DNA of 32,008 nucleotides from Prevotella sp. (GTDB taxonomy: Bacteria > Bacteroidota > Bacteroidia > Bacteroidales > Bacteroidaceae): the NCBI GenBank assembly GCA_022788105.1, contig JALEVZ010000076.1:1-32008 (forward strand). Reading direction: 5' to 3'. This document shows positions 578-1,655 of this stretch, one piece after another; the first letter of the stretch is position 1; each line of letters begins with the position of its first letter. The notes beneath the pieces were generated by a model that saw only the letters and a list, made by a program, of their open reading frames with translations, had not been told where the DNA came from and searched no databases. Position numbers and translations under genes: made by a program.

Positions 578-1408
578 TCATTCTCCCTTATATTCTCCCA
601 GTATCTTCATCTCGCTTGTCAGTGGAATGATGGCGTCGATGCTTTGGTGGTATCGGGTGAGGTTGTCGTAGGTCACGTCAACGTAGAAGAGATATTCCCA
701 CTCGTGGCCGATGATGGGGAGCGATTGTATCTTCGTAAGGTTTATGCTGTAGAACGACAGTATGGTCAGCACCTTTGAGAGACTGCCACCTTCGTGTGGC
801 ACGTTAAAGACAAGGCTCGCCTTGTCGGCTTTCTCTATGGGTCGGAGGAAGTCTGCCTTGTTTGGGTCGCACACCACGAGGAAGCGTGTGTAGTTGTGCT
901 TGTTGTCTTCGATGTGGTCTTCCAAAATCTTCAAGCCGTACAGTTTGGCAGCGGCAGCGTTGCAGATGGCGGCCCATCCTTTGCAGCGGTTCTTTGCAAT
1001 GTACTCTGCAGAGCCTGCGGTGTCTTCTGCCTCCACAGCCTTCAGGTCGGGGTGGTTGGCCAGATATTGCCGACATTGCATCAATGCCACGGGGTGGGAG
1101 TGTACCTCTCTTATTGTCGACCAGTCGTCGTCGGGCAGACAGCAGATGCAGTGGTGAATCTGCAACTTATGTTCTCCGGCTATCGTGGCGCCTGAGTCAC
1201 GCAGTAACTGGTAGTTGTGCAACAGGCTTCCGGCAATGGTGTTCTCTATAGCCACCATTCCTATGACTGTCGGGTCGCGCTTAATGTTTTCAAACACTTG
1301 CTCAAATGTCGCGCAGCATATAAGCTGTATTTGTTCCCCCTGGAAGTGTTCGTGTGCTGCAATGTCGTGGTACGACCCGTTGAAGCCTTGTATTGCAATC
1401 CTTTTCAT
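578..1408 (-). CDS. pheA: Prephenate dehydratase with C-terminal ACT domain
   Basis: 276 aa; RIAIQGFNGSYHDIAA, IENTIAGSLLHNYQLL, TRFLVV and ACT region SLVFNVPHEGGSLSKVLTILSFYSINLTKIQSLPI. Confidence 0.93.
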   Translation of the reverse strand: MKRIAIQGFNGSYHDIAAHEHFQGEQIQLICCATFEQVFENIKRDPTVIGMVAIENTIAGSLLHNYQLLRDSGATIAGEHKLQIHHCICCLPDDDWSTIREVHSHPVALMQCRQYLANHPDLKAVEAEDTAGSAEYIAKNRCKGWAAICNAAAAKLYGLKILEDHIEDNKHNYTRFLVVCDPNKADFLRPIEKADKASLVFNVPHEGGSLSKVLTILSFYSINLTKIQSLPIIGHEWEYLFYVDVTYDNLTRYHQSIDAIIPLTSEMKILGEYKGE

Positions 1409-1442
1409 CTCTGTCTCTTTTTGTTATTTATCGTTTGTTACG

Positions 1443-1480
1443 AAAAAGCCCCGCGTTCACTTATATGTGAAGCGGGGCTT
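1443..1480 (-). terminator. Intrinsic terminator in the pheA leader (attenuator)
   Basis: Minus strand AAGCCCCGCTTCAC-ATATAA-GTGAACGCGGGGCTT followed by TTTTTCG; 14-bp stem with one bulged base, about 35 nt upstream of the pheA ATG. Confidence 0.9.
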
Positions 1481-1512
1481 GAGTTTAATAATATCTTACC
1501 ATAAGTTGAAAT

Positions 1513-1587
1513 TTACACGCAACTTCCCGCTTCACAATTTCTTGCAAAGTAAAAATAAAAGTAATAAAAAGATGCGTACATTTTCAT
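1513..1587 (-). CDS. pheA leader peptide MKMYASFYYFYFYFARNCEAGSCV
   Basis: ATG at 1587, TAA at 1513-1515; run of eight consecutive aromatic residues FYYFYFYF; followed by mutually exclusive antiterminator/terminator pairings. Confidence 0.85.
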   Translation of the reverse strand: MKMYASFYYFYFYFARNCEAGSCV

Positions 1588-1624
1588 AACTATATGTTTT
1601 CTGTCTTATTTTGTTGTTTGCTTG

Positions 1625-1655
1625 CAAATGTATAACATTTTTTTCTTATAGGCAA
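1625..1655 (-). promoter_or_regulatory. Bacteroidota-type promoter for the pheA leader
   Basis: Minus strand TTG (-33, plus 1653-1655), 20-nt spacer, TACATTTG (TAnnTTTG -7, plus 1625-1632); about 38 nt upstream of the leader ATG. Confidence 0.65.

Follow-up and report, generated by a model that had tools for sequence, protein, structure and literature searches.

The pheA operon in the window, by which we mean the whole 32,008-nucleotide stretch of Prevotella DNA analyzed here, is very probably controlled by a ribosome-mediated transcription attenuator that senses phenylalanine and tyrosine. Comparison of related loci supports the leader open reading frame (ORF), its mixed codon run, three mutually exclusive helices, a terminator and the content of the operon, all at the level of sequence. 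Ribosome stalling, ribosome-polymerase coupling and the direction of the response are steps that we infer.

All elements lie on the minus strand and can be read directly in the order TTG-N20-TACATTTG, leader ORF, GTGAAGCGGG, intrinsic terminator and pheA. The putative promoter is of the Bacteroidota type (1655-1625), with TTG at 1655-1653, a 20-nt spacer and TACATTTG at 1632-1625. The leader ORF (1587-1513) has 24 codons and a stop and encodes MKMYASFYYFYFYFARNCEAGSCV, with eight consecutive aromatic residues, FYYFYFYF (1569-1546), giving it the cluster of pathway amino acid codons that characterizes short leaders of the trpL/pheL class. The stretch GTGAAGCGGG (1535-1526) is an exact complement of CCCGCTTCAC (1476-1467), and the pairing extends to 11 bp. 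The terminator (1480-1443), whose identification rests on folding energy and covariation, comprises a stem at 1480-1446 and a U-tract running to 1443, with a predicted energy of -23.6 kcal/mol, and is separated by 37 nt from pheA, as expected for the 3:4 terminator of this class. The first-pass annotation had described the promoter, the 24-codon ORF with its aromatic run, the terminator and pheA in just this way, and a base-by-base comparison on the minus strand agreed throughout; the 10-bp complement that it reported between the codons after the run and the 5' arm of the terminator was likewise exact, falling one base pair short of the full pairing. An aromatic run of this length is unique to the leader among the short ORFs of the window, which holds one attenuator module only, and a search of the 32 kb for further leader peptides gave low-specificity matches only. 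Runs of five His codons had three matches in the genome.

The first gene of the operon, pheA (1408-578), encodes prephenate dehydratase (Pfam PF00800 [PDT], E value of 2.1e-56) and is followed by the 5' part of a class I/II aminotransferase gene (498-1) that is cut by the contig end. Relatives with longer contigs carry, in order, pheA, the aminotransferase gene, a DAHP synthase-chorismate mutase fusion and tyrA, which together cover entry into the shikimate pathway and the two branches that lead to Phe and to Tyr. An operon that makes both amino acids fits a leader with mixed Phe and Tyr codons and nearly without Trp, and the earlier suggestion that an alternating leader would suit such an operon is thus borne out by the gene content of the relatives. 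One same-genus genome without a pheA match (G029; locus L180, G029:C62:7500-12500) retains the leader immediately ahead of the aminotransferase gene, which indicates that the attenuator is tied to the operon rather than specifically to pheA.

To place the leader in its genus, we took 100 same-genus genomes, 80 of which had pheA, and read the upstream DNA at 76 loci. The closest named carriers of pheA include Leyella stercorea, Hallella bergensis, Hoylesella loescheii, Segatella albensis and Xylanibacter ruminicola, and the genus is therefore Prevotella in the broad sense. An aromatic leader ORF precedes pheA at 73 of the 76 loci (96%) and at 64 of 68 loci (94%) from Bacteroidales outside the genus, drawn from other genera and families, compared to 0.7% and 2.1%, respectively, in dinucleotide shuffles and 0.25% in neighboring stretches (n = 408). 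In a phylum-wide draw, the upstream DNA of the 29 closest pheA genes was read, and 27 have the leader. The leader before pheA is therefore not due to chance, and it is present, judged by these sequences, at nearly all Bacteroidales loci checked and in many other Bacteroidota. The aromatic runs of the genus contain 316 Tyr and 259 Phe codons and a single Trp codon. The motif TAnnTTTG stands upstream of the leader ATG at 69 of 73 genus loci versus 6.7 expected from dinucleotide shuffles, in line with the promoter proposed earlier. A covariance model of the leader had exactly one match in 48 of 60 same-genus genomes; 47 of these have a pheA match with the leader directly upstream, the remaining one is G029, and none of the 12 genomes that the model missed has a full pheA match. 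Three same-genus pheA loci have no leader (L065, L068 and L069). L065 retains a promoter-like motif despite the missing leader, and in L068 and L069, apparent coding DNA extends close to the pheA start.

Downstream of the codon run, the leader can fold into three mutually exclusive helices, all of them conserved with double changes, as in the trpL/pheL class. Segment 1 (1549-1542), which comprises the last Phe codon and flanking bases (CTTTGCAA), pairs over 8 bp with TTGTGAAG (1537-1530) across a GAAA loop. All eight pairs are intact in 61 of 64 distinct loci; 99.4% of alignment cells are paired, and 25 cells carry double changes versus 7.0 in shuffles. On a tree of 80 pheA genes, the closing pair underwent about 14 changes. 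For the contrasts, we used a tree of full pheA genes from named genomes, a 198-nt pheA tree being too weakly supported for counting independent changes. Across five independent supported contrasts, both sides of the closing pair changed jointly in a mean of 4.8 out of 5 and never in opposite directions (p of ∼0.06, the floor attainable with five contrasts). In many leaders of other Bacteroidales, the Phe/Tyr codons (TTTTACTTT) themselves form segment 1.

Segment 2 (TTGTGAAGCGGG, 1537-1526), identified from sequence and conservation, is the alternative partner of segment 1 or of segment 3 (CCCGCTTCACA, 1476-1466), the latter forming both the 5' arm of the terminator and the far side of the antiterminator. 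Within the genus, the 2:3 antiterminator varies too little for strong covariation: double changes occur at 5 of its 11 pairs, a pair count equalled by 25 of 500 shuffles, and 11 double-change cells were counted versus 3.3 expected. At all 73 genus loci, the sequence that pairs with segment 2 overlaps the terminator's 5' arm. Across families, where the segment sequences diverge widely (GACCGGGA/TCCCGGTC, GGTCGGG/CCCGACC and ACGGGATTTTAT/ATAAAATCCCGT), an own-locus 2:3 complementarity score of 18 is reached by 78% of modules versus 33% when the two segments come from different loci and 3.6% when segments are shuffled. By this comparison of sequences, compensatory changes have preserved the antiterminator pairing across families. 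The 3:4 terminator covaries strongly, with double changes at 10 of 14 pairs and 67 double-change cells versus 24.5 in shuffles.

The first-pass annotation had proposed that the 2:3 and 3:4 pairings exclude each other and had suggested looking for a conserved aromatic upstream ORF and covarying alternative helices in relatives. The alignments answer in its favor, since the ORF is conserved at the counts given above and both helices show double changes in excess of shuffles. Its appeal to the enterobacterial pheA/trp logic also holds, although its description was incomplete, the 1:2 protector hairpin having been overlooked. With this hairpin in addition to 2:3 and 3:4, the leader has the complete 1-2-3-4 layout of the trpL/pheL type.

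Two further structural features were seen. A hairpin over the leader stop codon (AAGTTG/CAACTT, 1525-1503) adjoins the antiterminator and has 18 double-change cells versus 7.1 in shuffles; it is missing from some clades and may serve as an element that stacks on the antiterminator or as a pause site. Separately, eight loci (L011, L030, L053, L054, L064, L070, L073 and L076) have a second type of terminator, ACGGTCC/GGACCGT, in which the stem is offset from segment 3 and the antiterminator is only 6 to 8 bp long. Automatic terminator finders gave over-long or wrong stems at a few loci, such as L008, L010 and L107.

From this layout, a mechanism can be proposed. Transcription would start a few bases downstream of TACATTTG, probably near 1618, and the leader would then be translated. 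A shortage of Phe-tRNA or Tyr-tRNA would stall the ribosome within FYYFYFYF, masking segment 1 and leaving segment 2 free to pair with segment 3 as it emerges; no terminator would form, and the polymerase would read on through pheA and the genes behind it. With an ample supply of both amino acids, the ribosome would reach the stop codon and cover segment 2, so that 3:4 forms and transcription ends near 1443. If the leader were not translated, 1:2 could form and termination would likewise be expected. Simple folding with a general model favored 2:3 in 97% of loci as long as segment 4 had yet to be transcribed and retained it in only 22% afterwards. Because most loci lose 2:3 once segment 4 exists, switching must depend on kinetics, as it does in trp. 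When ribosome edges like those of E. coli were assumed, which may not be those of the host, the stall and termination geometry across 71 loci was that of the trpL/pheL class: about three of the eight aromatic codons are positions where a stalled ribosome both hides segment 1 and exposes segment 2, and in 99% of loci, segment 2 is covered when the ribosome terminates.

Other readings of the same sequences were considered. The leader might encode a TnaC-like arrest peptide, in which translation is stalled by the nascent FYFYF chain itself, possibly together with ribosome-bound free Phe or Tyr, and not by a lack of charged tRNA. The good conservation of the end of the run as YFYFA or YFYFS would be in keeping with this, but the last aromatic codons are also needed at the RNA level by the 1:2 hairpin, which accounts for their conservation. 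Phe and Tyr moreover interchange at most positions, and the C terminus is variable or lost to earlier stops, and we therefore regard an arrest peptide as improbable.

It is very unlikely that the terminator, though real, is constitutive, with an ORF that is a small protein or a product of chance and a pairing that has no role in switching. GC-rich segments can be complementary by chance, and the ORF could specify a small hydrophobic peptide; against this, complementarity within a locus exceeds that between mismatched loci across families, the partner of segment 2 falls within the terminator arm at every genus locus, and the RNA segments persist while the peptide ends differ in length and frame. 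An RNA-level sensor of another kind (a T-box, a riboswitch or the site of an RNA-binding protein), to which the ORF would be incidental, is a reading for which we found no supporting point. A scan of the window assigned no Rfam family at the gathering threshold, nor did a relaxed threshold, where the best same-strand matches include Leu_leader and Phe_leader, far below their cutoffs; we consider such a sensor extremely improbable.

Some relatives of the Phe/Tyr attenuator have a more elaborate form. At 10 of the 68 Bacteroidales pheA loci (L089, L099, L101, L103, L107 and L108 and also L085, L088, L132 and L140), two aromatic leaders stand in tandem, each followed by a terminator-like hairpin, and in several of these, the second module has a pairing of its own, AAGGTGGGAT/ATCCCACCTT. 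The phylum-wide draw contained three loci with two leaders.

The kind of attenuator is known, and its Phe/Tyr form, as far as sequence models go, matches no Rfam family; what is notable is how widely it occurs, its use of both Phe and Tyr codons and its doubling into tandem modules in relatives. We see an even chance that this is a dual Phe/Tyr attenuator present across the Bacteroidota, probably ancestral, in which the sensing codons form the protector helix and the tandem modules of several families act as two serial gates. Attenuation of this type needs a ribosome that closely trails RNA polymerase, and its conservation would thus be indirect evidence for coupling in the Bacteroidota; if the attenuator is indeed conserved throughout the phylum, it would imply close ribosome-polymerase coupling across it. 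To our knowledge, there is little direct work on such coupling in this phylum, and attenuator leaders offer ready reporters for it. For the Bacteroidales, which are a major part of the human gut flora, the leader is also a clear candidate for an amino acid sensor on the Phe/Tyr operon. With the tandem form comes the question of how serial attenuators shape a response, and a new Rfam model could be built from the present alignments.

Among known systems, the enterobacterial pheL/pheA leader has an aromatic-rich ORF, alternative helices and an intrinsic terminator with pheA downstream, pheL being a leader with Phe codons before pheA. The window shares this layout of leader, helices, terminator and pheA but has Phe and Tyr codons before a joint Phe and Tyr operon, whereas pheL has Phe codons. 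Membership in Rfam Phe_leader (RF01859) was rejected, with 19.5 bits versus a cutoff of 55.

The first-pass annotation had called such attenuators little documented in the Bacteroidota, which is correct in part, since two elements precede the present one: the Bacteroid-trp RNA motif of 2010 and a Flavobacterium pheA 5' element of 2021. Bacteroid-trp (RF01692), published as a motif and listed as cis-regulatory (Weinberg 2010, PMC2864571), is found in the same phylum and also has a leader ORF inside a structured 5' region; it differs in sequence and in its Trp codons (WWW in the leaders of seven of eight examples that we inspected) from the Phe/Tyr leader of the window, and neither the window nor its genome had a match to this family. 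A 2020 map of Bacteroides thetaiotaomicron mentioned short ORFs that resemble leader peptides (PMC7366714). Our literature search found no description of a Bacteroidales Phe/Tyr leader, and an earlier prediction is possible in a comparative study of attenuation of amino acid operons (Lopatovskaya 2010). The tandem arrangement of about 10 of 68 Bacteroidales pheA leaders resembles that of Salmonella mgtCBR, where two short ORFs and attenuators share one leader (PMC3641672), although the signals, genes and phylum differ and the window itself has a single module. The 2021 transcriptome of Flavobacterium psychrophilum suspected leader peptide attenuation for amino acid operons and described a conserved structured pheA 5' element in Flavobacteriaceae without an Rfam match (PMC9723704). 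It resembles the leader of the window as a structured 5' transcript region before a Bacteroidota pheA that matches no Rfam family; the main text of that article gives no mechanism, and the present analysis adds to it the helices, the Phe/Tyr run and the extension to the Bacteroidales.
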